A stretch of DNA of 64,000 nt, taken from assembly GCF_015244565.1 (NCBI RefSeq), contig NZ_JABCQG010000011.1:1-64000 (forward strand), read 5' to 3'. Position numbers and translations under genes: made by a program. Below, one piece after another: positions 32,778-48,885 of the stretch. The notes under the pieces were generated by a model. It was not told the DNA's origin, did not search any database, and saw only the letters and a program-made list of their open reading frames with translations. The stretch is from Gluconobacter vitians. Lineage in GTDB: Bacteria > Pseudomonadota > Alphaproteobacteria > Acetobacterales > Acetobacteraceae. The number at the start of each line of letters is the position of its first letter. Within the stretch, counting starts at the first letter, position 1.

Positions 32778-33566
32778 TCAGATTTCCACGTCAACGGCAG
32801 CTGACAGCGCTTTCGCGATACCTGGAGCCGCCGCGAGAATGGTGGCACCACCCGTCAGGCCACCGGTTTTCAGGAAGGGTGAGACCGCTGCACCTGCTTC
32901 GGAAAGAATGATCAGAGCCGCCGCCACATCCCAGAGCTGGATGACGATTTCCAGATAGCCGTCGGAACGTCCGCAGGCCACGTCAGCCAGGGCCAGCGCG
33001 CCGGAACCGCCAGAGCGGGGCATCGCGCCAAGAGCCATGATGGCGGCGATCTTTTCGTTGAAGGTTTCGGTCGGAACACGCGCTGACCAGCCCATTTCGA
33101 TCATGGCTTCCTGCGTGTTCGTGATGGGGGAGGCCTTGATCGGCTTACCGTTCAGGAACGCGCCCTTGCCCTTCTGCGCCGTGAAGACTTCGCCGAGGGC
33201 CGGAGCGTCGATGATGCCGGCAACAGGTTCGTCTCCGTCCAGCAGGCCGAGCGAGACGCACCAGCGGTCCCGTCCACGGGCATAGTTGGATGTCCCGTCG
33301 ATCGGGTCCACCACCCAGCGGAAGCCACCCTGACGTGTCGCTCCATTTTCCTCACCCTGAAAACCGTCCTCGGGGAAAAGCTCCTGGATGCGGCGGCTGA
33401 CGAAAGCTTCGACGGCACCATCCGTCTCGGTCAGGTAGTCCTGCCGTCCCTTGAGGGTGCCGGTCGGGCCACCGGGAGCGGGGCGCAGGGAGAGGGCCAG
33501 TTGGGCCGCATCGCGCACAACGGAACGGGCGGCTTCGAGGCGGACGGCAATCGGATCGAAAGTCAT
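32778..33566 (-). CDS. Inositol monophosphatase-family phosphatase
   Basis: A 262-residue Mg-dependent sugar-phosphate phosphatase. Metal-binding motifs are GEENG (~65), WVVDPIDGTSNYARG (~82-96) and, near the C-terminus, QLWDVAAALIILSEAGA (~205-220). It may act on inositol 1-phosphate, histidinol phosphate, NADP or 3'-phosphoadenosine phosphate; motifs do not separate these. The ATG at 33566 lies 10 nt after the mmcB stop, so the pair is an operon. Its closeness to the sphingolipid region makes an inositol role conceivable but unproven. Confidence 0.87.
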   Translation of the reverse strand: MTFDPIAVRLEAARSVVRDAAQLALSLRPAPGGPTGTLKGRQDYLTETDGAVEAFVSRRIQELFPEDGFQGEENGATRQGGFRWVVDPIDGTSNYARGRDRWCVSLGLLDGDEPVAGIIDAPALGEVFTAQKGKGAFLNGKPIKASPITNTQEAMIEMGWSARVPTETFNEKIAAIMALGAMPRSGGSGALALADVACGRSDGYLEIVIQLWDVAAALIILSEAGAAVSPFLKTGGLTGGATILAAAPGIAKALSAAVDVEI

Positions 33567-34234: not shown

Positions 34235-35125
34235 ATGCCATTTTTGCGGACGGATCACTGGCGCTGCGCCATCGTTCACGCGCCTCTGACGGAGGTGATC
34301 GAAGCCGCCAGCCTGAACGGCTTTCCCATCACGACGCTGCCCGATATCGGGGATCATCGTTTTCTGGCTGATCCGTTCGGGTTCTGGCGGGACGGAAAGC
34401 TGCATGTTTTTGCCGAAGCGTTCGATTATCGCAGTCCGAAAGGAACGATCGAGGTTCTGATCTATGACGGGACAGGCCAGATGGTCCGCCGTGAGACCGT
34501 TCTGGAAGAACCTTGGCACCTGTCCTATCCGTTCGTGTTCGAGCATGAAGGCGAAGTTTACATGCTGCCGGAGGCGAACGGGTCAGGGCGGCTTTCGCTG
34601 TATCGTGCGAAGTCTTTCCCGCTGGACTGGGAACGGGTCGAGGCCTTCGACTTCCCTGAAGCCGCGATTGACGCCACGCCATTCCAGTATGCAGACCGAT
34701 GGTGGATGTTCTGGACGCCTGCGGGTGACAAGGACGAACGGCAGAGCCTGCTGAACATTTCCGTGGCCGACACCCTGATGGGGCCGTGGAAAAATCTCGG
34801 GCTGTTCCTGAACGACCGCGCCGGAGCCCGTCCCGGTGGCACGCCGACCATCGTGGAGGGAAAGATTTTTCTGCCGACGCAGGACTGTCGTGGGACCTAT
34901 GGCCACGGGATCCGGCTGCTGGAAATTGAAGGTCTGGAGCGGGGCTTGCCGAAGGTCACGCCGGGATTGTCGATTTCCATCCCGGTGTCTTTGCGAAAGC
35001 GGTATCCGGACGGCATGCACACCCTGTCTGCGGCAGGACAGGTAACGCTGATCGACGTCAAGAAAATCGGATTTGGCCCTAAACGAGACCTGCTTAATCT
35101 GAAGCATCGGATTTTCGGCGCCTGA
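34235..35125 (+). CDS. Five-bladed propeller protein like the N-terminal domain of plant GINT1
   Basis: A 296-residue protein whose repeats (DPFGFWRDGKLHVFAE, YPFVFEHEGEVYMLPEA, TPFQYADRWWMFWT, TPTIVEGKIFLPTQDC) have the spacing of a beta-propeller related to glycosyl hydrolase 43/62 folds. This domain occurs at the N-terminus of the plant glucosamine inositolphosphorylceramide transferase and alone or fused in bacteria. The catalytic role is not established. The ATG at 34235 has GGGAGAGGG upstream. It ends 20 nt from the converging GT4 gene at the edge of the sphingolipid island, which supports a sphingolipid-glycan function by association only. Confidence 0.65.
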   Translation: MPFLRTDHWRCAIVHAPLTEVIEAASLNGFPITTLPDIGDHRFLADPFGFWRDGKLHVFAEAFDYRSPKGTIEVLIYDGTGQMVRRETVLEEPWHLSYPFVFEHEGEVYMLPEANGSGRLSLYRAKSFPLDWERVEAFDFPEAAIDATPFQYADRWWMFWTPAGDKDERQSLLNISVADTLMGPWKNLGLFLNDRAGARPGGTPTIVEGKIFLPTQDCRGTYGHGIRLLEIEGLERGLPKVTPGLSISIPVSLRKRYPDGMHTLSAAGQVTLIDVKKIGFGPKRDLLNLKHRIFGA

Positions 35126-35145
35126 AGGGTACGTATCCTAGGCGC

Positions 35146-36216
35146 TCAGAAGCCCGGGATACGATCCAGCACCGCATTGCCATGCCTGACGAACGCTTCA
35201 GGACCGAAGCGTTCCAGCACCCGTTTGCGGGAGCGTGCTCCCATCGCGGCAAGCTCTGCGGGTCTGCCGATCAGGTCTGCCAGAGCGGCGGCAAGAGCGG
35301 GGGCATTGTCGAACGGCACGATGCGTCCCGTCTCACCGTCGAGAATGCTCGATGCCAGTTCGCCTGCAGGGGTGGAGACAACCGGCAGACCGCAGGACAT
35401 GGCTTCATGCCCTGCCACACACATGCCTTCCCAGTGCGATGACTGGACGTAAAGATGCAATGTCTTCAGGAAATCAAAGGGCTTTGATTCATAGCCCAGC
35501 AGGTCGATCGGCAGATTTCCAGCCGTGATGCGGGCCTGAAGCGCCGCATGTTCGGGACCATCGCCTGCAATCTGAAGGCGGAATGGCGGCAGGTCCGGAT
35601 GATCTTTAAGAAGAGCCACGGCCTCGCATAGCATGTCATACGCCTTGACCGGGTTCAGGCGTCCCAGTGTTCCGACGCGCACGACTTCGCCTTCTTTCCA
35701 CGATGCGGCGACAGGAGCATCCGGATCGGCCCGGAAAATGGGCCAGGCGACGAAATTGTCGCTGATGCCGAGTTCCTTGTCTGCAAAGGTGATGACGGAC
35801 TGGGAGTCGGCAACCCAGAGCGTGGTGTAAGGCCGGCACAGGCGCAGCAGGAAGGCATTGACCTTCTTCAGACGTCCGCAGTGCTGCCAATGAACCGTTG
35901 GAGTCTTGTGACGCAGCGCGATCAGTTGCCCCAGAAGCGTGGCGCGGCTGAGAGACGTCCAGATCAGGTCCGGCTGGAACGCCTCCATCTCGTCCCGCAG
36001 CCAGCGATAGGCCGCGATGTGATCCCGCGTCGTGCCTTCCCGGACGCGCACGGGGATACCGGCGGCTTCGATCAGCGGAATGGCGAGGCCGTCCTTGCGG
36101 GCGAGTGCGAAGATCGTCACATCGCCGCCACGCGCCCGAAGAACCGACACGATGTCCGGAATGGGAAGCTGTGCACCGCCGCATTCAAGGGAATTGATGA
36201 TGTAGGCGATTTTCAT
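35146..36216 (-). CDS. GT4-family glycosyltransferase
   Basis: A 356-residue GT-B enzyme. The N-terminal domain begins MKIAYIINSLECGGAQ, typical of GT4. The C-terminal nucleotide-binding domain has VGTLGRLNPVKAYD (~185-198), LQIAGDGPEHAAL and the EX7E motif in EGMCVAGHEAMSCGLPVVSTPAGE (~268-291). It is the last gene of a six-gene leftward operon with the lipid permeases and hydroxylase (ATGA overlap with the nucleotidyltransferase gene). The probable acceptor is a membrane lipid such as a ceramide headgroup; sugar and linkage are unknown. Confidence 0.85.
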   Translation of the reverse strand: MKIAYIINSLECGGAQLPIPDIVSVLRARGGDVTIFALARKDGLAIPLIEAAGIPVRVREGTTRDHIAAYRWLRDEMEAFQPDLIWTSLSRATLLGQLIALRHKTPTVHWQHCGRLKKVNAFLLRLCRPYTTLWVADSQSVITFADKELGISDNFVAWPIFRADPDAPVAASWKEGEVVRVGTLGRLNPVKAYDMLCEAVALLKDHPDLPPFRLQIAGDGPEHAALQARITAGNLPIDLLGYESKPFDFLKTLHLYVQSSHWEGMCVAGHEAMSCGLPVVSTPAGELASSILDGETGRIVPFDNAPALAAALADLIGRPAELAAMGARSRKRVLERFGPEAFVRHGNAVLDRIPGF

Positions 36217-36968
36217 GGGGTCGTCTGCGCCAGGATTTTTTCGGCCAGTTTCAGGTCGGAAGGTTTGTCCACGTCCACTGCCGCACGTCCGTCCGACAGG
36301 GGCACCAGACGCACGCTGGCACCGGTCAGCTTATGGATGCGGCGACAGAGCGCTGTCGAATCCAGTGTATGGGTCACGGCGCGCAGAAGGGTTCCGAGGC
36401 CCAGCGTCATGGCCATCCGGAGCGGGCGCTTGCGGTTCTGCTGAAGCCGCTTCCACAACTCAATGACGTTCCGCCCCTTTGGGGTGCTGATGAGAAACAG
36501 GTTGCAGCCGGAAAAGCTCATATCCGACAGCCGGATATAGGTCCGCTTCGTACCGGGCACGTCGCGTTCGACCGTGGAGCGCAGTGCGACACCGGCGGCC
36601 AGATCGCAGCCCTGGGCCTTGGCCAGAAACTCCTGAATCCATTCCGGACGCAGAAGCGCGTGATCGGCTGTCGTCACCAGACAAGGCATTCCAATCCGGG
36701 CAATGGCTTCGGCCACGCTCTCGCTGGGAGAGGGGGCGGAGCGCAGGATCGTGGCGTCACCTGCCAGATCCCTGATGCAGTCCGGATTTTCGATGCTGAT
36801 CGTCACAGGCCCAAGGCCGGGCGTGTGGGCAATTGTGTCGAGGACGCGGGCCAGCATGGGCTGACTGGCGACGGGAAGAAGCGCCTTGTGGGAAACCTGC
36901 CCCAGCTTCGCAAGCACATCATTCTCGCCGTCGCGGGAGCCGGCGAGAACCAGAACGGGGAGGCTCAT
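36213..36968 (-). CDS. MobA-like nucleotidyltransferase
   Basis: A 251-residue NTP-transferase-fold protein. The signature loop is LVLAGSRDGENDVLAK with KALLPVASQPML (~8-38), and the metal Asp is in LVTTADHALL (~98). Such enzymes activate sugar or polyol phosphates with CTP, GTP or UTP, or assemble molybdenum cofactor. No mo-co genes are present. Within this operon (ATGA overlaps on both sides) it more likely makes an activated headgroup precursor, or transfers a nucleotide to a lipid-linked phosphate. The C-terminal ~100 residues (SDMSFSGCNLFLI...) are family-specific. Confidence 0.75.
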   Translation of the reverse strand: MSLPVLVLAGSRDGENDVLAKLGQVSHKALLPVASQPMLARVLDTIAHTPGLGPVTISIENPDCIRDLAGDATILRSAPSPSESVAEAIARIGMPCLVTTADHALLRPEWIQEFLAKAQGCDLAAGVALRSTVERDVPGTKRTYIRLSDMSFSGCNLFLISTPKGRNVIELWKRLQQNRKRPLRMAMTLGLGTLLRAVTHTLDSTALCRRIHKLTGASVRLVPLSDGRAAVDVDKPSDLKLAEKILAQTTP

Positions 36969-37780
36969 GCCGCGCGGTTATGCCCGGAAGCCGTGCGGGC
37001 TGCAGCCGGACGTGCGCCGTCGGGACGGTCCTTCGGAGGCGACCCCGTCAGATCCATGACCCACGGATAGCGATGCGCTTCCTCGATGTCATAGCCGAGA
37101 TTGAAGACATGCTTGCTGCGGGGCCGGTCACGGGCCTCGCGGTAGAAACTGCTGAACAGACGGTCCGGGACGTAATTCGTGATGCCGTAATTGCCGTCTT
37201 CATCGTGGAAATGGTGCAGGACGTGAAGCTGCTTGATGTCCGCCACCCATTTCCAGCGCGGCTTGTAGGCCAGATGCTGGATGCAGTGGAAGAACTCGTA
37301 GATGCAGGTCATGACTAGCGCGGTGGAAAGCGCACAGAACGCACCGCTCCATCCTGCAATCAGGCCACCGATCGGCATTGTGATGATCGCCATGGTCGGC
37401 ACCGTGTTCAGCGGGGAGCCGAACAGCACGTCCAGCAGATGCGGGTCCTGATGATGGTCGAAATGGATGCGCTTCCACAGGGAAGCGGTCCAGTGGTTGC
37501 GGTACAGCCAGCGCCCGTGAAGGATAAAGCGGTGGATCGCATACCAGGCCAGCGGATAGACCACGATCACGACGGGAACGGGAATGAGCGTCGCCCAGAG
37601 CGCGGTCGAGAAATGCAGGGCGGCCCAGGCGGACACTGCGATCAGCGCGAAATAGAGCAGGATCGTCGGATAGGTCAGATAGGCGAACCACAGCTGCGGG
37701 AGGTTCATCTTTCCCAGATCGAAGCTGCGGCCTGTCCGGATGGCGGACATGTTGCGCCATGGTGCCTTGAAGTTGCTCAT
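36965..37780 (-). CDS. Fatty acid hydroxylase-superfamily protein (candidate ceramide 2-hydroxylase)
   Basis: A 271-residue membrane enzyme of the sterol desaturase/fatty acid hydroxylase family. The His clusters that bind two irons are present: HRFILHG (~83-89), HFDHHQD (~106-112), HCIQH (~162-166) and HVLHHFHDEDGNYG (~183-196). Four hydrophobic segments surround them. FA2H-type enzymes put an OH on carbon 2 of the ceramide acyl chain. Acetic acid bacteria are known to contain 2-hydroxypalmitoyl-sphinganine, so this fits well, although the substrate is inferred from context. It overlaps the LptG-like gene and the nucleotidyltransferase gene by ATGA. Confidence 0.82.
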   Translation of the reverse strand: MSNFKAPWRNMSAIRTGRSFDLGKMNLPQLWFAYLTYPTILLYFALIAVSAWAALHFSTALWATLIPVPVVIVVYPLAWYAIHRFILHGRWLYRNHWTASLWKRIHFDHHQDPHLLDVLFGSPLNTVPTMAIITMPIGGLIAGWSGAFCALSTALVMTCIYEFFHCIQHLAYKPRWKWVADIKQLHVLHHFHDEDGNYGITNYVPDRLFSSFYREARDRPRSKHVFNLGYDIEEAHRYPWVMDLTGSPPKDRPDGARPAAARTASGHNRAA

Positions 37781-38886
37781 CGTTCCTCCATCCGCAGAAG
37801 CCAGGTCAGCCCCATAAGGGCGCCCAGCAGCGGGCCTACACTGACAGCCAGGGGCGCCGGAAGCGTCCCGGCATTTCCAAGTGCGGAAATCATTCCCTGC
37901 AGGATGACAAAGCCCATTCCGGCTGCAAGAACATAGACCGGGAGCGGGTTTCGAAGTCCTGCACGAGGTGGGATATAGATCACCGGCAGCGTCAATAGAA
38001 GCATTACTGCAATCTGAACGGGCAAAATCATGCCCGTGAACAGCGCCATACGGTATGTGGCCCTCGGCAGACTTGCCGGTGCGCCTTTGTGAAGAATGGC
38101 GCTGATCTGGGCGGGTGTTACGAATGCTCCGTTCTGCGACAGCGTCATGATGATCGACGGTGTGGCGGGAATAACGAAAGTGTTGTCACCCTTTGTCACA
38201 TTGACGAACGACTTGTCGTCGGAAAGGGAAAGATCCTGCGCGCCATCAGGATGCCACTGACCGTTCTGGTACGTCAGGATATTCGTATGCTCGGTCCCGG
38301 TCAGCAGGCCCGTGGCGTCACGGTGATAGATCGTCACGTCCCGCAGGAAATAGCCGCCCTGGGCGATCTGCCCGATCCGGACCAGCGTGGGACCCGCGCG
38401 AAACCACAGGATGTCGTCTTCGGGCTGCCCTTCCTTTCCGGCCAGCGGGTCGGTCCGGTTCCACCAGGTGGTGAGGGCATTTTCGCAGGGTGGGACCAGC
38501 CAGTACTGGGCACAGGCGCCCCCGATCCCCGCAATCAAAACGGCGGGTATGAGCAGGCGGTACAGCGCCGGCGTTGACAGTCCGGCCGCCCGCAGCGCCG
38601 AGATTTCGCTCGACAGCGTCATCTGGGTGAGGAGGAACAGTGCCCCGACCATGAAGGCGAGTGGCAGGATGTCGATGCTCAGGGCCGGCAGATGCAGGAA
38701 CGCGAATGTCAGGATACCGCGCACGCCAAGATGCCGGTTCAGGATCGGAGTCGTCTTTTCGAGAAGCGCCAGGATCTCCAGCAGGGAGACGAGGACGGCG
38801 CCGCAGAGCATGAACCGTCCCAGAAGGGCACGGTTGAGCGCCTTGATCAGCACAAACCGGGGCATACGATGCGTGGACTCGGTCAT
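37777..38886 (-). CDS. lptG: LptG-like permease (LptF/LptG family)
   Basis: A 369-residue membrane protein of the LptF/LptG permease family. It has TM helices around 15-38, 55-80 and 95-120, a periplasmic beta-jellyroll-like middle (~135-265) and three more TM helices at the C-terminus (~275-365). It is smaller than or equal to normal LptG and sits with the LptF-like gene between lipid-modifying enzymes instead of near lptD. It could be the regular LPS exporter half or a dedicated sphingolipid exporter; family membership is sure, assignment to F or G less so. The ATG overlaps the LptF-like stop (ATGA). Confidence 0.8.
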   Translation of the reverse strand: MTESTHRMPRFVLIKALNRALLGRFMLCGAVLVSLLEILALLEKTTPILNRHLGVRGILTFAFLHLPALSIDILPLAFMVGALFLLTQMTLSSEISALRAAGLSTPALYRLLIPAVLIAGIGGACAQYWLVPPCENALTTWWNRTDPLAGKEGQPEDDILWFRAGPTLVRIGQIAQGGYFLRDVTIYHRDATGLLTGTEHTNILTYQNGQWHPDGAQDLSLSDDKSFVNVTKGDNTFVIPATPSIIMTLSQNGAFVTPAQISAILHKGAPASLPRATYRMALFTGMILPVQIAVMLLLTLPVIYIPPRAGLRNPLPVYVLAAGMGFVILQGMISALGNAGTLPAPLAVSVGPLLGALMGLTWLLRMEER

Positions 38887-40037
38887 GCCGGTGCCCGTGT
38901 CAGCTTGCGGCGGCGCCAGGAGCCGCGGGAGCGACGGAGCAGGGCCGCCAGACAGCCGATGCAGAATATGAGTTCCGGCACCCAGATCGCCAGCCAGATC
39001 GGAAGGCGGCCGGTCGAGGCAAGGCTGTGACCGAACATCAGGGTCTGGTCGAAGCCGATCAGGATGACGGCAACCGCAATCAGGCCCCAGACGGATTTTT
39101 TACGCCGGGAGCCGATGGCCAGAGCAACGGCAAGAGGCGGAATGAAGGGGATGGCCAGTGCGCGGGCCATGCGGAAATCCATCTCTGCCCGGAGCGTGCG
39201 GTATTCGATGCCAGGCAGGCCATAGCGCAGATCATGCGCCAGTTCGAACTGCGTCAACTCACGCTCGTCGGCGCCGCGTGAGCGGAAAGTCGTTTCCCTG
39301 GTCGGCCGGTCGATGACGCGGACGACATGTTCGAAATGAGTCACGGTCGGCTTGTGGGGTTTGGTCGCCTGGAACGGATCATCCACGATTTCCCCGTTCC
39401 ACAGGTCGAGGCGGGTGCTGCGGGTCTTTTCGGAGATGGTCAGCGCCCCGGTGCGGGCCGTAATGATATGGGCGACACCATTCGCATTGACTTCACGGAT
39501 GAACACACGCCTGAGCCGGGTGCCGGCGTGGCTGACACTGTCCGCTGTCATGACGGCCTTGCTGGAAGTGGATGCGAACATCCCGGCCTGAAGATGCGGC
39601 GCCCAGCCCGTATGCTCGGCAAAATAGAAGCCCGCGCGATAGTCATAGCGCGCGACCGGCTGGATATAGCCGTAGAGGAACATGCTGGCCGCGCTGAGGA
39701 GCAGCCCGACGATCATGAACGGTCGGCTGATCCGCATCAGGGAGACGCGACCGGCCTGAAGGGCATCAATCTCATTATTGTCGCTCATGCCGCGAATGGT
39801 CAGGAAAACCGAAATGCAGAGTGCGGCAGGCAGCGCGATACCGAAATAATGGGGCAGCAGATCCGTCAGAAGCGCGATGCAGGTTCCAAGTGAACTGCCT
39901 GCCGAAGCCAGATAGTCAAAGAGGGACAGCAGGCGTTCCAGCAGCAGGGCGACCAGCATGGCCAGAAGCGCGATCGCGAAGGGGGGCACCATCTGTGTCA
40001 GCAGATACCGGTCCAGAATATGGGCCCGCTGTTTCAC
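38883..40037 (-). CDS. lptF: LptF-like permease (LptF/LptG family)
   Basis: A 384-residue membrane protein. It begins ILDRYLLTQMVPPFAIALLAML (TM1), has two further TM helices with the family's MSDNNEIDALQAGRVS segment after them (~88-103), a periplasmic domain (~135-270) and C-terminal TM helices. I use GTG 40037, which overlaps the phosphoesterase stop (GTGA) and has AGGACAGAGG upstream; the longer frame would reach 27 nt further into that gene. With the LptG-like gene it forms a heterodimer-type pair, but the LptBC ATPase/bridge components are not in the window. Confidence 0.82.
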   Translation of the reverse strand: MKQRAHILDRYLLTQMVPPFAIALLAMLVALLLERLLSLFDYLASAGSSLGTCIALLTDLLPHYFGIALPAALCISVFLTIRGMSDNNEIDALQAGRVSLMRISRPFMIVGLLLSAASMFLYGYIQPVARYDYRAGFYFAEHTGWAPHLQAGMFASTSSKAVMTADSVSHAGTRLRRVFIREVNANGVAHIITARTGALTISEKTRSTRLDLWNGEIVDDPFQATKPHKPTVTHFEHVVRVIDRPTRETTFRSRGADERELTQFELAHDLRYGLPGIEYRTLRAEMDFRMARALAIPFIPPLAVALAIGSRRKKSVWGLIAVAVILIGFDQTLMFGHSLASTGRLPIWLAIWVPELIFCIGCLAALLRRSRGSWRRRKLTRAPA

Positions 40038-40957
40038 GCCTCTGTCCTTCCTGCCCGCTTCCACGACGCCCGTTCGCTGACGGAACCATCGAGCCGGTGA
40101 CGTGCCAGATTGATCGTCCAGCCCTTTTCATATGGGTGGATGGACAGATGATTCCAGCAGGCCTGCCGATGCGGGCGTTCATCGGTCAGCGATGCGGACG
40201 CCACGCCGAGCAGTGGAATGTCTGTTCCGGCGATATGGGTCAGGGTCGCATCATGGGAGTGTCCATGCAGGACGATCTCCGCTCCCGCCCGCTGGAACAC
40301 CCCGGCGACTTCCCGGTGATCGAGCAGGGACTTGCGCCACGGGACGAGGCCGCGCTTTGGCGGATGATGGATCATCACGACCCGGCACAGTCCTTCTTTC
40401 CCGAGACGCTCGAGCAGGGCTTCCAGCCGGTCACGCTGCCGGCGTCCGACACGCCCGCAGGCCATGAAGGGTGCGGTCGGAATACCGGAATTGACGCCTA
40501 TGATCGCAACGCCGTTCTGGATGCGGACGTAAGGGTACTGCCGGGCAGACCAGCGTTCCCACTGGTGCAGGCCGGCCGATGCCGGCTGCCGGACCATGCA
40601 GTCATGATTGCCGGGAATAACAAGGGCAGGCGCGGGCAGGGCATCCAGCCAGCGGGCTGCTTCCGCGAATTCGTCCGGCGTTCCGAAATTGGTCAAGTCC
40701 CCGCTGACGAGGATGGTATCGACATTCGAGCGTCCGATATCCTTCACCAGCGCTGCGCAGGTCTGCGCAAGATGGACGTACTGGCGATGCTTCTTCCAGG
40801 ACAGGAGACTCAGGGCGCGCTTGTTGAGCGCCTCGCGCCAGTAAACCGGGGGCGGGGGCAGATGCGGGTCCGAAATATGGGCCAGTGTGACAGCGGGCGT
40901 GGGGACAGGGGACGTGTGCCGCGACGAGATGGGATCTGCGGGCAGGTCAGGGGTCAT
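40034..40957 (-). CDS. Calcineurin-like metallophosphoesterase
   Basis: A 307-residue dinuclear-metal phosphoesterase. All motifs are intact: HISDPHL (~27-33), VSGDLTN (~85-91), PGNHD (~115-119), IHHPPKRG (~198-205) and LHGHSHD (~233-239). It has no signal peptide. Substrate possibilities are cyclic nucleotides, CDP-type anhydrides (UDP-DAGDG pyrophosphatase-like) or lipid phosphates. As first gene of the six-gene operon with LptF/LptG-like, hydroxylase and glycosyltransferase genes, a pyrophosphatase or lipid-phosphate step is attractive. It is divergent from the lipid kinase gene with a 130-nt gap. Confidence 0.85.
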   Translation of the reverse strand: MTPDLPADPISSRHTSPVPTPAVTLAHISDPHLPPPPVYWREALNKRALSLLSWKKHRQYVHLAQTCAALVKDIGRSNVDTILVSGDLTNFGTPDEFAEAARWLDALPAPALVIPGNHDCMVRQPASAGLHQWERWSARQYPYVRIQNGVAIIGVNSGIPTAPFMACGRVGRRQRDRLEALLERLGKEGLCRVVMIHHPPKRGLVPWRKSLLDHREVAGVFQRAGAEIVLHGHSHDATLTHIAGTDIPLLGVASASLTDERPHRQACWNHLSIHPYEKGWTINLARHRLDGSVSERASWKRAGRTEA

Positions 40958-41087
40958 GATCAGAAAAGGGCCTTGTCAGTATCCACGCCAGGAATAGGTG
41001 TCCGGACGAGGATCCGGGCCGCCCTGTTCTGGCAGTTCCATCATAGCCGTGCTAGACCCGCCCGCATAGCCGAACGCCAGATGAAGA

Positions 41088-42047
41088 TTGCCTCACCCAG
41101 TGCGCATTGCCTTGATCCATAATGCCCGTAGCCGGAAAAATCGCCGGGACGGTTCCAGTTTTGCTGTCGAGGCCCAGGCCCTTCTGGGAAAGGATTTCGT
41201 TCCTTCGGATAGTCGTGAAGGCACGACGGAGCATGTCCGGCAGCTTTACGAGCGCGGGATCGACACCATTCTCATCGATGGCGGGGACGGGACGGTCAGC
41301 ACCGCACTGACCGCCATCGCGCGTGCCTATCCGGCCGACAGGTTTCCGGACATCGTGGTCCTGGCGTCTGGCAATACCAACCTGATCGCGGGTGACGTTG
41401 GTTTTGGCCTGCGTGGCATGGAAGCGATCCAGCGTCTGCGTCAGGGCGGGCTCCGCTCCAGTATGCGCACACCGATCCGTCTGTCCTGGCCGGGAACGGA
41501 CCGTATGCCGGTGCTTGGCCTGTTCGGCGGCTGTGCGGGATATGCAAGAGCCGTGCGGATCGCACATTCTCCCACCGTCCTGCGGTTTGCCCCCCATGAT
41601 CTGGCTGTCGGCATCACGTTGCTGTCCACATTCGTCAGCCTCATGTTCCGCAAAAGCCGTGAAGACTGGCTCAGGGGCGATCCGCTGCGGATCGAGACCG
41701 GCGGCCATGTCTATGACGGCCAGAGCTTCATGTTCCTGACGACCGGACTGTCGCGCCTGTCGCGTGGCATCTGGCCGTTCTGGGATGCCGAGCCCAATGT
41801 CGAGGGACTGCGTTATCTTGATGTCAGTGCCTGGCCGGACAGTCTGCTGCGGGCGACGGCGGCCCTTCTATGCGGTCGCGCACCCCGCTGGCTGCGCCGT
41901 CATCCCGATTACGTCAGTGGTCGTACGGATGACATGACGCTGGTCACGGAAAGCGATTTCGTACTCGACGGCGAGGTCTTTACGGCAGCACCTGGTGGAG
42001 TCCTGCGTCTGGAACGTGCTCCCGGCTTCAGGTTTCTCCATGCCTGA
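41088..42047 (+). CDS. Diacylglycerol kinase-family lipid kinase (candidate ceramide kinase)
   Basis: About 319 residues. The DAGK catalytic domain begins IALIHNARSRKNR and contains the ATP/phosphate loop DGGDGTVSTAL (~64-74) and ASGNTNLIAGDVG (~92-104). The C-terminal lobe has MFLTTGLSRLSRG and ends with a VLDGEVF motif typical of YegS/DgkB-type lipid kinases. Caulobacter uses a kinase of this family (CpgB) to phosphorylate ceramide; from context I propose the same here. The start is uncertain: TTG 41088 or GTG 41100, since the ATG at 41081 is out of frame. The downstream gene overlaps by 8 nt. Confidence 0.8.
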   Translation: MPHPVRIALIHNARSRKNRRDGSSFAVEAQALLGKDFVPSDSREGTTEHVRQLYERGIDTILIDGGDGTVSTALTAIARAYPADRFPDIVVLASGNTNLIAGDVGFGLRGMEAIQRLRQGGLRSSMRTPIRLSWPGTDRMPVLGLFGGCAGYARAVRIAHSPTVLRFAPHDLAVGITLLSTFVSLMFRKSREDWLRGDPLRIETGGHVYDGQSFMFLTTGLSRLSRGIWPFWDAEPNVEGLRYLDVSAWPDSLLRATAALLCGRAPRWLRRHPDYVSGRTDDMTLVTESDFVLDGEVFTAAPGGVLRLERAPGFRFLHA

Positions 42048-42978
42048 TGCGCTCGAACAGCGTCTGATCGGTGAATTGACAACGCCGGTCGACTCTGGTG
42101 TCGCCGCCTTTGCCGAAGCGCTGGCCCGCGCCTGTCCTGTTCTGCCGCTGGGCATCCTGTTTTATGGTTCGATGCTGCGGAAAGCCGATCCGGACGGCAT
42201 TCTCGACTTCTATATCGTCACTGAAAACGCCGAAGGTTTTTCAGGCGGGCTGGTGGCCCGGACCGGCAATCTCGTTCTGCCCCCCAATGTCCGCTACGCC
42301 GAATTCCGCCACGGTCACCGTACTCTGAGAGCCAAGATTGCGGTATTGTCACGTGCGCAGTTTGCCGCCCGAACCGGGCTCGGGGCCTTGGATACGACAA
42401 TCTGGGCGCGATTCTGCCAGCCGGCGCGGCTGGTCTGGGTGCGCGATCCGGAAAGTGCGGATGCTGTCCTGTCACTGATCGCAGCCTGCGTCACAACGGC
42501 ATCATGCTGGGCGGCGCTGCTGGGTCAGCCATCCATGACGGCGGACGATTTCTGGAAAATCCTCTTTGCGCACACCTATGCCTCTGAACTCCGCGTGGAG
42601 AAAAAGGGGCGGGGAAGCAGTATTCTGGAAGGGCAGGAAGCGCGTTACGCAGCCATGCTGCCTCTGGGCTGGGCACGGGCACATCTGCAGTTTGCGGCAC
42701 GTGGCGATATGCTGGAACCTGTTATCAGTGCAGCGCTCCGCAAAAAGGCAATCCGCCGCTGGGCTCTGATCCAGAAATCAGGTCGCCCTCGCAATGTAGC
42801 CAGACTTATGAAAGGGGCCTTCACTTTTGAAAATGGCGCATCCTATCTGGCCTGGAAGATAAAGCGCCATACGGGCTTTGATATGCAGCTATCGCCCTTT
42901 GAAAGCAGGCATCCGCTTGTGATGCTGCCCCGGCTTCTGTGGCGGGCACGCCATCTTCTGAAACGTCAGAAAAACTGA
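42040..42978 (+). CDS. TAM41-like phosphatidate cytidylyltransferase-family protein
   Basis: A 312-residue protein resembling mitochondrial TAM41-type CDP-diacylglycerol synthase. A nucleotidyltransferase-like segment reads LFYGSMLRKADPDGILDFYIVTE (~34-56; Gly-Ser then acidic residue), then AKIAVLSRAQFAAR...LDTTIWARFCQPARLVWVRD, corresponding to the KYGV...DLxxWxxLYxAGRLxKPV region of TAM41. The C-terminal half is helical. With the upstream lipid kinase it suggests phosphorylation followed by CDP activation of a lipid. This is inference from remote similarity. It ends at a strong bidirectional terminator. Confidence 0.65.
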   Translation: MPDALEQRLIGELTTPVDSGVAAFAEALARACPVLPLGILFYGSMLRKADPDGILDFYIVTENAEGFSGGLVARTGNLVLPPNVRYAEFRHGHRTLRAKIAVLSRAQFAARTGLGALDTTIWARFCQPARLVWVRDPESADAVLSLIAACVTTASCWAALLGQPSMTADDFWKILFAHTYASELRVEKKGRGSSILEGQEARYAAMLPLGWARAHLQFAARGDMLEPVISAALRKKAIRRWALIQKSGRPRNVARLMKGAFTFENGASYLAWKIKRHTGFDMQLSPFESRHPLVMLPRLLWRARHLLKRQKN

Positions 42979-42982
42979 AAAC

Positions 42983-43014
42983 AAAAAAGAGGATCCATCG
43001 GATCCCCTTTTTTT
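42983..43014. terminator. Bidirectional terminator
   Basis: AAAAAAG-A-GGATCC-ATC-GGATCC-C-CTTTTTTT. It separates the rightward TAM41-like gene from the leftward spt gene and has T-tracts on both strands. Confidence 0.85.
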
Positions 43015-43018
43015 GGTC

Positions 43019-44212
43019 TTACAGTCCGAAATGTCTGGCGACTTCGCCAAAGACCGCAACAGCACGGTCGATTTCTTCAGGAGAATGCGCAGCCATAACC
43101 GAGCAGCGCAGAAGCGGACGGTTATCCGGCGTTGCTGGCGGCAGCGAGAGGTTTACGTAAACCCCGTTTTCCAGAAGGGCGTTCCAGAACCCGACAGCCT
43201 GGTCCACGGTCTCCAGCGTTACGGCGACGACCGGGGAGACATGCTCGCCTGTCTTAAGGCCAACTTTCTGAAGTCCGGCATGCAGACGGGCCGCATTGTC
43301 CTGAAGCTTGATCCGCAGTTCAGGACGCTCCTGCATGTCCTCGAGGGCTGCCATGGTGGCGGCAATGATCTCGGGGGGAAGGGAGGCCGTGAACATGTAA
43401 GGCCGCGAGCACAGACGCATCAGGTCCACGCCGTCATGATCCGTGACGCAGTAGCCGCCAACGGTTCCAAGCGACTTGGAGAACGTGCCGACCACGAAGT
43501 CGATCCCGTCCTCACAACCCTGCATTTCCGCAACGCCGCGACCATGATCCCCCAGAACACCAAATGAATGGGCCTCGTCAGCCATCAGATACGCACCGTG
43601 GCGCGTCTTGATGTCCACGAACTTGTCCAGCGGGGCAACATTGCCTGTCATGGAATAGATGCCTTCGGCCACGATCAATTTGGCGCCCGGATGGTCCTTC
43701 AGGCGTGCCAGACGCTTTTCCAGATCGACCGGATCATTGTGGCGGAAGCGGATGACCTGCGCGCCGGACAGCTTGGCGCCATCATAGATGCTGGCATGGC
43801 TGTCAGCATCGAGCAGCAGGACGTCGTCCTTGTTCACCAGTGCCGAGATCGTGCCCAGATTGGCCTGATAGCCGGTGGAGAACACCATGCAGTGCTTGCG
43901 GCGGAAGAACTCGGCAAGCTTTGCTTCCAGCTTGCGATGGAGACCGAAGGTACCGTTCGCAATGCGGGAGCCTGTCGTGCCAACGCCCATCGTCTCCGCC
44001 GTTTCCACGGCTGCTTCGATGGCTTTCTTCGACTGGCTGAGACCAAGATAATTGTTGGTCCCGAACAGAAGCGTCTCGCGGCCTTCGATGATCCCGACAC
44101 TGGCGGAGATCGGGCGTTCGATCACGACTTCAAACGGATTGCGCGGCGACGCGGCCGTCAGGCCTTCATAGGCTTCGCGCAGGCCTGCGTGCTTGGCAAA
44201 AATATCTGTCAC
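43019..44212 (-). CDS. spt: Serine palmitoyltransferase
   Basis: A 397-residue PLP enzyme of the alpha-oxoamine synthase family that condenses serine with palmitoyl thioester to 3-ketosphinganine, the first step of sphingolipid synthesis. PLP contacts are visible: TGYQAN (~113), DADSHAS, EGIYSMTGN, DEAHSFGVLG (~203-212) and the Schiff-base Lys in GTFSKSLGTVGGY (~234-246). KBL and BioF are relatives, but the adjacent dedicated ACP and acyl-ACP synthetase, as in Caulobacter, favour Spt. GTG 44212 overlaps the ACP stop (GTGA) and is preferred over ATG 44242. Confidence 0.9.
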   Translation of the reverse strand: MTDIFAKHAGLREAYEGLTAASPRNPFEVVIERPISASVGIIEGRETLLFGTNNYLGLSQSKKAIEAAVETAETMGVGTTGSRIANGTFGLHRKLEAKLAEFFRRKHCMVFSTGYQANLGTISALVNKDDVLLLDADSHASIYDGAKLSGAQVIRFRHNDPVDLEKRLARLKDHPGAKLIVAEGIYSMTGNVAPLDKFVDIKTRHGAYLMADEAHSFGVLGDHGRGVAEMQGCEDGIDFVVGTFSKSLGTVGGYCVTDHDGVDLMRLCSRPYMFTASLPPEIIAATMAALEDMQERPELRIKLQDNAARLHAGLQKVGLKTGEHVSPVVAVTLETVDQAVGFWNALLENGVYVNLSLPPATPDNRPLLRCSVMAAHSPEEIDRAVAVFGEVARHFGL

Positions 44213-44463
44213 GCGTGGGCAACCTTGAGCGTGTGCAGGCATGCGGCAAGGTCATTGATGGTCCGGATGTCCGCAAGCTTGTCGAGCGGCACGGAAACGT
44301 CGAGTTCGTCCTCGATTTCCATGACGAAGTTCATGACGGCCAGGCTGTCAAAGGCCAGGTCTTCGACAATCTTGCTGTTGCCGTCGATGTCCCGGGGAAC
44401 CTTCGGGTTGGCAAGCAGTTTTTCAATGATCATTCCGGAAATGCCGGCGACGCTGTCAGTCAT
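44209..44463 (-). CDS. acpR: Acyl carrier protein for sphingolipid synthesis
   Basis: An 84-residue acyl carrier protein with the phosphopantetheine Ser in EDLAFDSLAVMNFVMEIEDEL (Ser at ~38). It differs clearly from the housekeeping AcpP at 29 kb (FDSL instead of ADSL and a different helix II). Position directly before spt, with a GTGA overlap, and after the acyl-ACP synthetase gene matches Caulobacter AcpR, which donates acyl chains to serine palmitoyltransferase. The ATG at 44463 begins MTDSVAGI. Confidence 0.9.
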   Translation of the reverse strand: MTDSVAGISGMIIEKLLANPKVPRDIDGNSKIVEDLAFDSLAVMNFVMEIEDELDVSVPLDKLADIRTINDLAACLHTLKVAHA

Positions 44464-44576
44464 GGACTTCAACTCTCGGTGTCTGTGCAATCTTGGGCAA
44501 GCCTTATGCTCCAAACCGGCCCCGTTCGCCACCCCTCTGCCTGTTCTGGCAGCCGGATGGCGCGGCCGGAAAGAGA

Positions 44577-46388
44577 TCAGGCGACCGAAGGCGTGGTTTC
44601 GGGCTGCTGTTCGAACTGACCGGAGAGCAGCATGCTTTTGGCCTTCGCACGGGTCAGCTTGCCAGAGGACGTCTGGGGGAGCGTGCGGGGCGGAACGAGA
44701 ATGACGTCAACATCCACACCATGTTGGCGGCGGAACAGACTCGTGACTTCGTCGCGGAGTTGGTCACGGCTCGCATCTTCCGTTGCACGGCACTGCACGA
44801 GCGCGACGATTTTCTCGCCTTCATCGCTATCCACGGAGAAGACGGCAACGTCACGCGATCGCAGGGACGGGATCTCGCTTTCGGCGGACCATTCCAGATC
44901 CTGCGGCCAGATGTTGCGACCGTTGATGATGATGAGGTCCTTGGCGCGGCCGGTGACAACAATCTGGCCGTTGAGGTGATAGCCAAGATCGCCCGTGTTC
45001 AGCCAGCCATCCGCATCGAGGACGGCCTCGGTCTCGTCAGGGCGACGGAAATAGCCGCACATGAGACTCGGTCCGCGGACATAAACAGTTCCGACCTGTC
45101 GGTCTGCCAGATCGCGGCCCGTTGCATCGCGGACTTCGATCTGGTGATCGGGGAGGGCCTCACCACACAGGACGAAAGTCCGCAGCGGATGGGACGGATC
45201 GTTGGACGGCTCTGCAATGCCGTCCTTCTCAAGACGGCGCAGGTCGATCGTATCGGTCTGGATGCCGGTATCGAGCGGAGCAAAGCTGATCGCGAGGGTG
45301 GCTTCCGCCATGCCATAACTGGCGACGAAAGCGCTGGCCCGGAAGCCGTTTGATGCGAAACGCTCGGCAAAGCCTTCAAGGATATGGTGGCGGATCATGT
45401 CGCCGCCGATGCCGGCAATACGCCAGCACGACAGGTCAAGATCGGCCTGACCGCTGCGGCGGGCGCAGAGTTCGTAGCCGAAGGACGGGCTGTAGGCGAT
45501 CGTGCCGCGGTTGCGGGAAATCAGGTCCAGCCAGACATGCGGACGCCGCGCAAACTCGCGGGTCGGCAGCAGGTCCACGGAGAGCTGGCAGGTCAGCGGT
45601 GTGAGGAAGAAGCCGACGAGGCCCATGTCATGATAGAGCGGCAGCCAGGAGACGCAGCGGTCATCGCGCGGATCTTCCGCCGGGTGAACATGCAGGCCGT
45701 CTCGGGCGATGGCGCGGGCATTGGCCATGCCGGCCGCCTGCGTGACCGAGACACCCATTGGAAAGCGCGTGCTTCCTGAGGAGAACTGAAGGTAGGACAG
45801 GGCCGTCGGAGAAATTTCCGGCAGTTCAACGCGGGCTTCGGCGTGACGGTACAGGTCGGCCGGCGATCCGCCGAACACCAGATCAAGTCCGTCAATGATC
45901 TCGCCGGTCCAGCTTCCGATCACGTCCGGAACCACGACAGCACGCGCTGTAGCGCTCTGGATCATCCCGCGCAGGGTTGCCACGTAGCCTTCACGTCCAC
46001 CGAACGCGACGGGCAGAGGCAGAGGAGCGGGGACGAGGCCAGCGTACTGGCAGCCGAAGAAAATCCGGGCGAAATCGCCATCGCTTTCCGCAACGATCGC
46101 AACACGGTCACCAGGGACAAGGCCAAGACCCAGCAGGCGGCAGGCCATGGAGCGGGCCTGCTCGCGCAGCAGACGGTAAGGCAGCGCTTCAAGAAGCTGT
46201 CCCCGTCCGGAATAGATGTTGAATCCGCTCTCACCCTGCGCCGCGTAATCGAGTGCGGCAGCAAAGCTGGGGAAATCACCGTAACGTCTTTCCAGGCCGG
46301 AACGGCTGGGCGTCGGGACGGGATTGGCGGTTGGGTTCTGGTTGGCCTCGGTCAAACCTGGACTAGCTCCGTTTGGATTACCTGACAT
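44577..46388 (-). CDS. aasR: Fatty acyl-AMP ligase/acyl-ACP synthetase
   Basis: A 603-residue ANL-superfamily enzyme of the FAAL type. Adenylation motifs are LSYLQFSSGSTRFPMG (P-loop, ~191-206), VASYGMAEATLAIS (~368-381), the Asp in GWLNTGDLGY (~478) and, in the small domain, the Lys in SSGKLTRAKAK (~582-592). It should activate a fatty acid as acyl-AMP and load the neighbouring ACP, as AasR does in Caulobacter ceramide synthesis. Its start overlaps the upstream gene's stop (TGATG). The 113 nt to acpR hold no clear terminator. Confidence 0.88.
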   Translation of the reverse strand: MSGNPNGASPGLTEANQNPTANPVPTPSRSGLERRYGDFPSFAAALDYAAQGESGFNIYSGRGQLLEALPYRLLREQARSMACRLLGLGLVPGDRVAIVAESDGDFARIFFGCQYAGLVPAPLPLPVAFGGREGYVATLRGMIQSATARAVVVPDVIGSWTGEIIDGLDLVFGGSPADLYRHAEARVELPEISPTALSYLQFSSGSTRFPMGVSVTQAAGMANARAIARDGLHVHPAEDPRDDRCVSWLPLYHDMGLVGFFLTPLTCQLSVDLLPTREFARRPHVWLDLISRNRGTIAYSPSFGYELCARRSGQADLDLSCWRIAGIGGDMIRHHILEGFAERFASNGFRASAFVASYGMAEATLAISFAPLDTGIQTDTIDLRRLEKDGIAEPSNDPSHPLRTFVLCGEALPDHQIEVRDATGRDLADRQVGTVYVRGPSLMCGYFRRPDETEAVLDADGWLNTGDLGYHLNGQIVVTGRAKDLIIINGRNIWPQDLEWSAESEIPSLRSRDVAVFSVDSDEGEKIVALVQCRATEDASRDQLRDEVTSLFRRQHGVDVDVILVPPRTLPQTSSGKLTRAKAKSMLLSGQFEQQPETTPSVA

Positions 46389-47521
46389 CAGGCAGCCCTT
46401 TTCAGAAAATCGACGATTGCGTCCGCCGCAGCGGGAGCAGTGGGCTCATCACCCAGTGTTTCGAATGTCTCTAATACATATTGGCGCTGCGCCTCAAGAA
46501 AACGAGGATGCGTTTCGAAGGCATTCTCGATCTTAGCGCCCAGATCCGACACGTTTTCCGTCACCGGTCCCAGTGTCCAGAACTGATAATCCGGATTTCC
46601 ATGCCATTTGACATGGTGGGCGTTGAGGAAGAGACAAGGCCGCGGGCGGATCATGAATTCGGCCACCTGACTGCTGACATCACCCAGATAGAGGTCTGCC
46701 CCCATCGTATAGGTCATGTCGATGCTGCGATGGCTTCCCGGATCAATCAGCATGTGCGGCAGATGCCCATACTGGCGCTTCAGGGCTTCCCCCTCTTCAC
46801 GGTGATTGTCGAAGAGACGGAAATGTGGCGCGAAAACAAGGTTGTAGCGGTCCTGCCTGGCAAAGAAATCCAGGATCTGATGTCCCATTTCCGGCCAGGA
46901 TGACAGGCGTCGCAGGAAATGCGGGTTATACAGGATCGTCGGCCGGTTGTTGTTAAACAGTTTCGGCCGTTTCGCATCCATGCGCCGTACGAGATCGAAC
47001 TTGGCGTAGGTGCCACGGTGATAGGCGCCCGGACGGATGATGCCCTTTTCCAGCATGCGCTGCTCCACTTTGCGGCCTGGAACCAGCAGGAAATCGAATT
47101 TCCCGAGATGCCGGGCAAATCCGATTGCCCGGTCACCGGCGCCATGTCCGGTCCAGATCATTTTCGGACGGCGCACACCCATGCGGCGAAGCTGCAGGGA
47201 CGTTGCTTCCGGGACGATGATCGAATTGAAGTTCCGAAAATAGCGACGGGATGCAAAAAGCCCGATCAGGCGGTCCACGACCCGCAGACCATGCTGCTCG
47301 ATGCGGCGACGCAGCTTCGCGGAAATCGGGAGCAGATCGAACTGCACCCGTGCTTCCGGATAGAGCGTGGCCAGCGAACGCGCCAGTTCAAGATGGCTTA
47401 CGGTCAGGCAGGAGACGTGAACTGCAACATCCGGATGGCGCGCGGAGACTTCCAGCGCGATCGGCAGCGCGTGCAGGGTCTGGTGACGCTGGCCGATGAG
47501 TGGGAACGCAACTTTCATCAT
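46388..47521 (-). CDS. CDP-glycerol glycerophosphotransferase-like protein
   Basis: A 377-residue GT-B-like protein. The C-terminal half shows TILYNPHF, FAPHFRLFDNHREE, MLIDPGSHRSIDMTYTMGADLYLGDVSSQVAEF (~275-305) and RPCLFLNAH, which resemble the CDP-glycerol/ribitol phosphotransferases of teichoic acid synthesis (PHP and DxSS segments). The N-terminal half is Rossmann-like (MMKVAFPLIGQRHQTLHALPI). In this operon it could add a glycerophosphate-like or phosphosugar group to a ceramide. The acceptor is unproven. ATGA and TGATG overlaps join it to the flippase and FAAL genes. Confidence 0.7.
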   Translation of the reverse strand: MMKVAFPLIGQRHQTLHALPIALEVSARHPDVAVHVSCLTVSHLELARSLATLYPEARVQFDLLPISAKLRRRIEQHGLRVVDRLIGLFASRRYFRNFNSIIVPEATSLQLRRMGVRRPKMIWTGHGAGDRAIGFARHLGKFDFLLVPGRKVEQRMLEKGIIRPGAYHRGTYAKFDLVRRMDAKRPKLFNNNRPTILYNPHFLRRLSSWPEMGHQILDFFARQDRYNLVFAPHFRLFDNHREEGEALKRQYGHLPHMLIDPGSHRSIDMTYTMGADLYLGDVSSQVAEFMIRPRPCLFLNAHHVKWHGNPDYQFWTLGPVTENVSDLGAKIENAFETHPRFLEAQRQYVLETFETLGDEPTAPAAADAIVDFLKRAA

Positions 47522-48885
47522 GCCACGGCCCCTTCAGGAGCGCGGATCGTCCGAACCACGAGCACAAGCTGGATCGTGATGAGAAGCGTCACGCCACATA
47601 ATGTGGCAGGCCCAACGCCACTCAGCCCGTAGTGACGCACCATCAGCACGAGGGCCGGCAGGAAGAACAGGCATTCGAGGATGCGTGCACCGATTGCAGC
47701 GCCCGACCGGTTGGTCGTGAACAGCAGTGGCTCGAGCGGCAGGCCCCAGACCGTGACCACTTCGGCCGCCAGCAGCCATAATGTGACCGGCAGAGCCTCC
47801 GTTGCGCCCTTGTGGCCGATATAGAGCTGAAGAAGCGGCTGTCCGGCAAACAGGGTCAGCAGGAGAAGCCCGGTTCCGATGCCGCCGGCCATCAGGGCAA
47901 TCTGGCCCGTAAGACGATAAAGCCGGTTCATGGCCCGGTCGCGCCACAGGCGGGCCATTTCGGGATAGACGGTCGTCTGGATCAGGGTTGCAGGCTTTGC
48001 AATTCCTGCCGCGATCTGGCTGGCAATGCGATAATATCCGGCACTGGTCGGACCGACGAATGCACCCACAACAAGCGTTCCGATATGGCCAAAGGCCAGT
48101 GCGAGCGTTGAATTGAGATTCGTGTTCAGCGCAAAGCGCCAGATCCCGGGGTAGGTGCGGAAGAACTGTCCGTTCAGGATATCAGGGACGATGCCGCGCA
48201 TTTCCTGAAAAAGGCCGCGGATCAGGTCACGGCGATACATCTCGCGGGTCGCCATGAAGAAGAGCGTGCCCCAGGCCGCGATTTCTGCGGCGATCCATAC
48301 GCTGGCCAGCGCGGCAACCGAAGCCCAGCCCAGAGCCATTGAGGCCGTGCCAACCACACGGACGATCGTGGCAACCGTTCCCTGCACGGCAAGGAGGTCG
48401 TAACGGTCAAAAACCCGCAGGAGCCCGGTCGCGGTGGCGGACGCCATGAACAGGATGGAAACGCAGTAAATGACACCGATGACATGGATCTGCGGCGGCC
48501 AGCCCAGCAGATTCATGGCCAGAAGACTGATGACGACACCACCGCCAAAACCCAGCAGACCGCCGAAGCTGTCCAGCAGAAGACTGAAAGATACGATTTT
48601 TTGGAAACTGCGGCGATCACCCTGCGTTAAGGGGCGCAGTCCAAAATGCAGGACCGTCTGCCATGACTGGAAATCGACAATATCGCCCATCGTCCGCGCG
48701 AAAGCGTACATCATCGCAACGAGTCCGAAGCTGTAACTTCCCAGCAGATGGGTCGCCATCCAGATATGGACGAGACTCAGCGGCGCATTGACTGCACGTC
48801 CTCCGAGAAGGACGCCCAGATTGCTCATGACACGCTGAACCCCGCCCGTTCGGGCGGTCTGGGAAGACGATGAATCGTCTGACAT
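47518..48885 (-). CDS. Wzx-type lipid-linked oligosaccharide flippase
   Basis: A 455-residue inner membrane protein with about 12-14 hydrophobic helices and the MATE/MOP-like pattern of polysaccharide exporters (AVNAPLSLVHIWMATHLLGSYSFGLVAMMYA early, a central pair with NLNSTLALAFGHIGTLVVGAFVGPTSAGYYRIA). It should flip a lipid-linked sugar or modified lipid across the inner membrane. First gene of the leftward operon that ends with spt, so the cargo may be a glycosylated sphingolipid. The start is ATG 48885 (a TTG at 48888 precedes it directly). Confidence 0.83.
   Translation of the reverse strand: MSDDSSSSQTARTGGVQRVMSNLGVLLGGRAVNAPLSLVHIWMATHLLGSYSFGLVAMMYAFARTMGDIVDFQSWQTVLHFGLRPLTQGDRRSFQKIVSFSLLLDSFGGLLGFGGGVVISLLAMNLLGWPPQIHVIGVIYCVSILFMASATATGLLRVFDRYDLLAVQGTVATIVRVVGTASMALGWASVAALASVWIAAEIAAWGTLFFMATREMYRRDLIRGLFQEMRGIVPDILNGQFFRTYPGIWRFALNTNLNSTLALAFGHIGTLVVGAFVGPTSAGYYRIASQIAAGIAKPATLIQTTVYPEMARLWRDRAMNRLYRLTGQIALMAGGIGTGLLLLTLFAGQPLLQLYIGHKGATEALPVTLWLLAAEVVTVWGLPLEPLLFTTNRSGAAIGARILECLFFLPALVLMVRHYGLSGVGPATLCGVTLLITIQLVLVVRTIRAPEGAVA

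Follow-up and report, generated by a model that had tools for sequence, protein, structure and literature searches.

A candidate island for the synthesis, tailoring and outer-membrane export of a complex sphingolipid in Gluconobacter vitians

By what route bacteria deliver complex sphingolipids to their outer membrane is an open question. It is raised by a 64,000-nucleotide stretch of Gluconobacter vitians DNA (GCF_015244565.1, contig NZ_JABCQG010000011.1, positions 1 to 64,000 of the forward strand; hereafter the window), in which 14 open genes at 34235-48828 bring together the serine palmitoyltransferase Spt, a lipid kinase, a Tam41-like cytidylyltransferase and a pair of LptF/LptG-type permeases. 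This island probably builds ceramide precursors and a phosphate-linked complex sphingolipid, which would be exported to the outer membrane via the permease paralogues LptF2 and LptG2. The reactions, the headgroup and the transport route are what we infer from the gene families, from their co-inheritance in relatives, from the predicted fold of the Tam41-like protein and from the separate clades of the two permeases. The features of the island are the following.

34235..35125, plus strand: GINT1_N-domain protein of 296 residues, putative headgroup glycosylation factor (PF24793, E 8.4e-36; sole match to the family in the genome)
35146..36216, minus strand: GT4 glycosyltransferase (PF13692, E 1.5e-26), with a 4-base overlap with the MobA-like gene
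36213..36968, minus strand: MobA-like nucleotidyltransferase (PF12804, E 4.3e-11)
36965..37750, or 37780 with a longer start, minus strand: fatty acid hydroxylase family protein (PF04116)
37777..38886, minus strand: LptG2 permease paralogue (PF03739, E 3.5e-62; LptG2 clade)
38883..40037, minus strand: LptF2 permease paralogue (PF03739, E 8e-51; LptF2 clade)
40034..40957, minus strand: calcineurin-like metallophosphoesterase, CC_1158-like by family (PF00149, E 9.7e-17)
41100..42047, plus strand: lipid kinase, predicted ceramide kinase, CpgB-like (PF00781, DAGK_cat, E 2e-10; GGDG motif conserved in the alignment)
42040..42978, plus strand: Tam41-like cytidylyltransferase, CpgC-like (no Pfam family; label taken from the fold)
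42983..43013, no strand: terminator-like hairpin in the gap where the Tam41-like and spt units converge (14-pair stem, T tail on one strand and a shorter version on the other)
43019..44212, minus strand: Spt, serine palmitoyltransferase (NF047599, 617.7 bits, cut-off 500)
44209..44463, minus strand: AcpR, acyl carrier protein (acyl carrier protein families, under the equivalog cut-offs), with a 4-base overlap with spt
44577..46388, minus strand: AasR, fatty acyl-AMP ligase / acyl-ACP synthetase (PF00501; NF006624, 914 bits, cut-off 600)
46388..47521, minus strand: CDP-glycerol glycerophosphotransferase-like protein of the TagF superfamily (PF04464, E 0.016 in the window copy)
47518..48828, minus strand: MOP-type flippase (PF01943, E 2.3e-9; NF007773, 35 bits, under its cut-off)

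The original prediction had described overlapping transcription units holding these genes, the GINT1_N gene being left unnamed, and all of them are present and open. The open reading frame check revealed that the majority share 1 to 8 bases with a neighbour. The first unit (minus strand) runs from the metallophosphoesterase through LptF2, LptG2, the hydroxylase and the MobA-like gene to GT4, and every junction is a 4-base overlap if the longer hydroxylase start is used. In the second (plus strand), kinase and Tam41-like genes overlap by 8 bases. The third (minus strand) carries the flippase, the TagF-like gene (4-base overlap) and aasR (1-base overlap), then, beyond a 113-base gap, acpR and spt. 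The GINT1_N gene forms a fourth, single-gene piece, convergent with the first unit.

Co-inheritance was analysed in 150 Acetobacteraceae genomes, scored as Spt-positive at an E-value of 1e-100 or better. Forty-eight are Spt-positive and 42 possess a Tam41-like gene, which was detected in 41 of the 48 Spt-positive genomes versus 1 of the 102 Spt-negative ones (Fisher p 2e-28; by genus, 28/34 versus 1/68). Genes around spt were then counted by tblastn in 47 neighbourhoods, that is, all Spt-positive genomes minus the window's own, some of the neighbourhoods ending at contig ends. The core consists of the kinase (35), the Tam41-like gene (35), the hydroxylase (34), LptF2 (33), LptG2 (33), the metallophosphoesterase (33) and the MobA-like gene (32). 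The order LptG2-LptF2-metallophosphoesterase-kinase-Tam41-Spt is found in 33 of the 47 and the full run from the MobA-like gene to AasR in 25, a conservation far beyond chance. The reading of the region as an island for sphingolipid synthesis, tailoring and export is supported by this co-occurrence, and the expectation that non-spt genes accompany spt in relatives holds for the core. In two congeners, the island is split at the boundary between spt and the Tam41-like gene: spt, acpR, aasR, the TagF-like and the flippase genes stay together and the remainder lies elsewhere, all genes being kept, in two and three blocks respectively; the third stretch, in G131, is the GINT1_N gene.

Across the class, the Tam41-like gene is present in 34 of 289 genomes. 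Among 30 short loci around it (window included), the kinase accompanies it in 26 and Spt in 22. In 20 longer loci, labelled with a simple gene caller that is unreliable at the low-GC loci L045, L066-L068, L070 and L131, we found LptF2 (17), CerS (15), Spt (15), LptG2 (15), CerR (14), the hydroxylase (14), the metallophosphoesterase (11), the MobA-like gene (8), a CpgA-like gene (8), the TagF-like gene (2) and the GINT1_N gene (0). G056, the sole family genome with a Tam41-like gene outside the Spt-positive set, carries the rest of the cluster including CerS (L213). Its enzyme, 34% identical to Spt, was considered as a divergent Spt and set aside, the best NCBIfam match being BioF (340 bits, cut-off 426), ahead of the Spt models (296 and 276 bits), all below cut-off.

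The permeases are the putative link to export. LptF/LptG pairs are encoded at two places in the genome, on contig 3 and in the island, and one LptC was detected. The island proteins belong over their full length to the family of the lipopolysaccharide (LPS) export permeases (PF03739, 174 bits for LptF and 211 for LptG), but they are a second pair, fall under the LptF/LptG equivalog cut-offs and group in clades of their own. Copies were counted in 64 of the 150 genomes: all 42 with the Tam41-like gene, the 7 Spt-positive ones without it and 15 hand-picked from the 101 with neither. Every Tam41-like-positive genome has at least four LptF/LptG copies (4 in 38, 5 to 8 in the other 4), whereas two were found in 14 of the 15 genomes with neither gene and three in the last (G017). 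Expressed by Spt, at least four are present in 47 of the 48 Spt-positive genomes and in G056, and the 15 Spt-negative genomes examined have two or three. Quick trees, built without bootstrap, were in agreement with a distinct lineage. In the larger one, which skipped three open reading frames, the LptF2 clade takes in 35 rows with a support of 99 and the LptG2 clade 37 rows with a support of 84. The smaller one, with 73 chosen rows, three poor or long rows replaced and SH-aLRT supports, places 19 rows in each clade (99 and 95). In both trees the clades stand apart from canonical LptF1/LptG1. They are compatible with a dedicated sphingolipid route of the kind that was proposed, not tested, for LptF2/G2 in Caulobacter (PMC11324152).

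These trees also revealed a third lineage, LptF3/LptG3, with 6 and 7 rows and support 100 each (L222, L224, L226, L229, L231, L233, L239). It has members in 6 of the 7 Spt-positive genomes without the kinase module, the exception being G021; G086 is placed by its LptG member only. In G068 and G140, LptF3/LptG3 adjoin acpR-spt. An inositol-phosphate synthase gene lies near spt in 5 of the 47 loci (L069, L071, L073, L074, L083), none of which has the kinase module. Four of them (L069, L071, L073, L074) add homologues of a nucleotidyltransferase, a CDP-alcohol phosphotransferase and a PIG-L-type deacetylase, and L083 has the synthase only. The matches are PF01658 at E 2.9e-36 and PIG-L at 6e-9 in L071, and 9.8e-36 and 1.7e-5 (the latter below its cut-off) in L074; the best NCBIfam match of the L071 nucleotidyltransferase is an inositol-phosphate cytidylyltransferase model, below cut-off. 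From these families, an inositol-phosphoceramide bearing glucosamine is a possible product of such relatives.

The island core is known in kind (PMC11324152, PMC12275187, PMC10331486, PMC13228409). The Caulobacter crescentus cluster CC_1152-1168 is described as containing Spt, AcpR, AasR, CerR, CerS, CpgA-D, LptC2/F2/G2 and a flippase (PMC11324152, PMC12275187, PMC10331486), as well as a ceramide kinase, a CDP-diacylglycerol-synthase-like protein, nucleotidyltransferases and a phosphoesterase (PMC11324152). Common to both clusters are Spt-AcpR-AasR, the lipid kinase, the Tam41-like protein, the phosphoesterase, the nucleotidyltransferase, LptF2/LptG2 and the flippase; the CpgB-like kinase adjoins the CpgC-like gene in the island (41100-42978). 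By contrast, the island is devoid of CerR, CerS and a CpgA-like CDP-alcohol phosphotransferase, no LptC2 was found, and the hydroxylase, GT4, GINT1_N and TagF-like genes are its additions. In family and order, most of the island corresponds to this ceramide/phosphosphingolipid cluster, of which it seems to be the Acetobacteraceae version. The main text of PMC11324152, which lists Hyphomonas, Sphingomonas, Zymomonas, Nitrosomonas, Azotobacter and Pseudomonas luteola, contains no occurrence of 'Acetobacter'. Among the literature matches listed, in which subscription journals are mostly uncovered, none was found to describe LptF3/LptG3, an alphaproteobacterial inositol-phosphoceramide or the occurrence of this cluster in acetic acid bacteria.

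CerR and CerS are reported as required for ceramide in Caulobacter (PMC11324152, PMC12275187, PMC10331486). With the CerS gene from other spt loci as query, a protein search identified a homologue of 38% identity (E 8.7e-69), which lies on another contig. A PF04339 (FemAB_like) protein on contig 8 had been considered for this role and was dropped, because it does not resemble that query. For CerR, there is a 30% match on contig 1. In several other alphaproteobacterial loci, the hydroxylase gene and the MobA-like gene stand beside CerS. Acetic acid bacteria contain 2-hydroxyacyl dihydroceramide. Ceramide is listed for Acetobacter malorum in a review (PMC10626005).

CpgA (CC_1159) is described in Caulobacter as required for CPG2 and not for ceramide phosphoglycerate (CPG), the latter needing only CC_1160 and CC_1161 (PMC11324152). 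In the whole genome, PF01066 is found in only two proteins, both encoded outside the window and best matched by pgsA (over the cut-off) and pssA (just below). A one-to-one CPG2 pathway was rejected on this ground, no third CDP-alcohol phosphotransferase being found. With no CpgA found in the genome, CPG2 is an improbable end product unless the role of CpgA has passed to some other enzyme, for which the TagF-like gene would be the first choice. Such a replacement would be no general rule, because L117 and L118 carry both CpgA-like and TagF-like genes. A CpgA-like gene is present in 8 of the 20 longer class-wide loci, next to the kinase in most, so that its absence from the locus is common. The original prediction could match the gene combination to no described pathway. 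This is only partly right: it is not supported for the kinase, CDP-activation, flippase and LptFG set, most of which has its likeness in Caulobacter, but the steps that finish the headgroup seem to differ.

No match to the Tam41 family of Pfam was obtained for the window's Tam41-like protein or for any of 25 aligned members. An AlphaFold2 model was built from the window protein and nine relatives (mean pLDDT 85.4), and its four best Foldseek matches are all Tam41 structures, 7ecd coming first (E 2.8e-8; TM 0.55 by query and 0.61 by target, for this predicted model) and 6ig4 and 6ig2 being among the others. The protein shares the fold of the mitochondrial and bacterial Tam41 CDP-diacylglycerol synthases but differs by its 12% identity, by the lack of a Pfam match and by a genomic context of ceramide and not phosphatidate. 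The model suggests that it is likely a CTP-using, lipid-activating enzyme, with ceramide-1-phosphate as the putative substrate because the kinase gene adjoins. For the Caulobacter counterpart CC_1161, the published description is much the same and includes the proposal of a nucleotide-activated ceramide (PMC11324152). For the MobA-like protein, perhaps the CC_1153 counterpart by position, the nearest solved relative by sequence is 2dpw (TTHA0179, E 6.6e-35). The structure 4jd0, the relative named for the CTP:phosphoglycerate cytidylyltransferase CpgD (PMC12275187), is not among the 51 matches of the MobA-like profile. The metallophosphoesterase profile matches phosphohydrolase structures including Rv0805. 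In a scan of named genomes (67 loci, mostly from Dongia, Reyranella and Enhydrobacter, and none from Caulobacter), the metallophosphoesterase occurs in 59 loci versus 9 for the Tam41-like gene and 8 for the kinase (L147-L202 being mostly Reyranella and Enhydrobacter). Being so much commoner than these two, it may serve the making of ceramide and not that of the headgroup.

The outer-layer genes are scarcer in the 47 neighbourhoods: TagF-like 20, GT4 18, GINT1_N 13 and flippase 12. Close GINT1_N homologues (E 1e-90 or better) are nevertheless present in 34 of the 150 genomes, 20 of them having it outside the fetched spt neighbourhood. In G001 (L215), the GINT1_N, TagF-like and flippase genes are grouped at a site apart from spt, and they also occur in the G056 cluster. 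Eight Tam41-like-positive genomes have no close GINT1_N homologue. These distributions favour a joint role on the lipid headgroup. Among aligned TagF-like members, 11 of 15 match PF04464 (best 1.4e-7), and searches of solved structures with the GINT1_N and TagF-like profiles gave weak or irrelevant matches only. Plant GINT1 (glucosamine inositolphosphorylceramide transferase) has a C-terminal glycosyltransferase domain besides GINT1_N; the two proteins are alike in the GINT1_N domain only, the island protein having no other Pfam domain over the cut-off, and the domain name by itself is not proof of glucosamine transfer. In another family (L117, L118), the cluster with the flippase and TagF-like pair is extended, beside the flippase, by genes for a methyltransferase, a HIT protein and an MlaA lipoprotein.

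Put together, these data are compatible with the following scheme. Spt, AcpR and AasR would start the ceramide chain, the distant CerS-like enzyme would complete the ceramide and the hydroxylase would add a hydroxyl group. The kinase would convert ceramide to ceramide-1-phosphate, from which the Tam41-fold enzyme most likely forms CDP-ceramide. A charged headgroup of unproven identity could be assembled by the MobA-like protein with the phosphoesterase and, in this lineage, with the TagF-like transferase, and GT4 and the GINT1_N protein could decorate it. The flippase would then turn the lipid over, and LptF2G2, sharing the one detected LptC of the genome, would export it.

Several observations weigh against this scheme. 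The co-occurrence counts are of genomes, shared ancestry being handled by the genus table alone, and Spt is unproven in G056. The island was matched to the CC_ genes by order and family, not by direct comparison with Caulobacter sequences. No CerR was found in the island or in the 13 kb around the CerS homologue, no genome-wide CerR search having been made. The model of the MobA-like protein is too poor for a structure search (pLDDT 60.6). The extra permease pair follows Spt and not the kinase module alone, because four LptF/LptG copies are present as well in 6 of the 7 Spt-positive genomes that have no such module (G021 has two). The support of the LptG2 clade is just 84 in the larger tree. 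Finally, G116 has the kinase module without LptF2/G2 beside it, and its one placed pair, with long branches and unusual composition, groups with LptF3/G3.

As an alternative, the island could encode the plain Caulobacter pathway, with CPG or CPG2 as the product and only the gene order changed. The kinase, CpgC-like protein, phosphoesterase, nucleotidyltransferase, LptF2/G2 and flippase are indeed common to both by family and neighbourhood, CPG needs just the two genes named above, and CpgA-like genes are in a minority of the longer class-wide loci. A genome with only pgsA- and pssA-like PF01066 proteins is nevertheless difficult to reconcile with CPG2, for which CpgA is described as necessary (PMC11324152), and the outer-layer genes are co-inherited; we regard this reading as unlikely. 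It is still less probable that GT4, GINT1_N, TagF-like and flippase genes form a separate surface-glycan cluster and that only the core acts on ceramide. These four are the variable genes of the 47 neighbourhoods (12 to 20 occurrences) and belong to generic families, and 11 genomes with distant GINT1_N proteins only are all devoid of Spt. However, the TagF-like gene and aasR share one base, a flippase and TagF-like pair stands beside AasR in L117 and L118 too, and all 34 genomes with a close GINT1_N homologue possess the Tam41-like gene, including those in which it lies outside the spt neighbourhood.

An inositol-based headgroup, giving a bacterial glycosyl-inositol-phosphoceramide, would account for the GINT1_N domain, for the inositol-monophosphatase-family neighbour of the island and for the relatives with an inositol module beside spt. 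The inositol and kinase modules are found together in none of the 47 loci and no third CDP-alcohol phosphotransferase was found in the genome, which makes this option highly improbable here, no genome-wide search for an inositol-phosphate synthase having been made. Beyond the phosphate-linked, LptF2/LptG2-exported sphingolipid that we favour, the Lpt permeases may have diversified with the headgroups: LptF1/G1 for LPS, LptF2/G2 for the kinase/CDP-ceramide module and LptF3/G3 for the inositol module or neither, the island headgroup being made from CDP-ceramide by the TagF-like protein, with no CDP-alcohol phosphotransferase involved, and glycosylated with the GINT1_N protein. This extension is tentative and rather doubtful as a whole. 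If true, the permease pair would be a readable tag for the lipid sent to the outer leaflet. The LptF/LptG copy-number split and the LptF2 and LptF3 clades make sphingolipid export testable by single deletions in cultivable relatives, and with CpgA missing, a product different from CPG2 is predicted.

In the region, terminator-like sites are not enriched (11 versus 10.4 in shuffled sequences), the promoter scan was at chance level and the Rfam scan gave no match. A large protein encoded at 50221-52905 of the window has a weak TonB-receptor plug match (E 1.9e-4, under the cut-off), with homologues in 0 of the 47 neighbourhoods. The inositol-monophosphatase-family gene that adjoins the island (32778-33566) is near the cluster in 18 of them.

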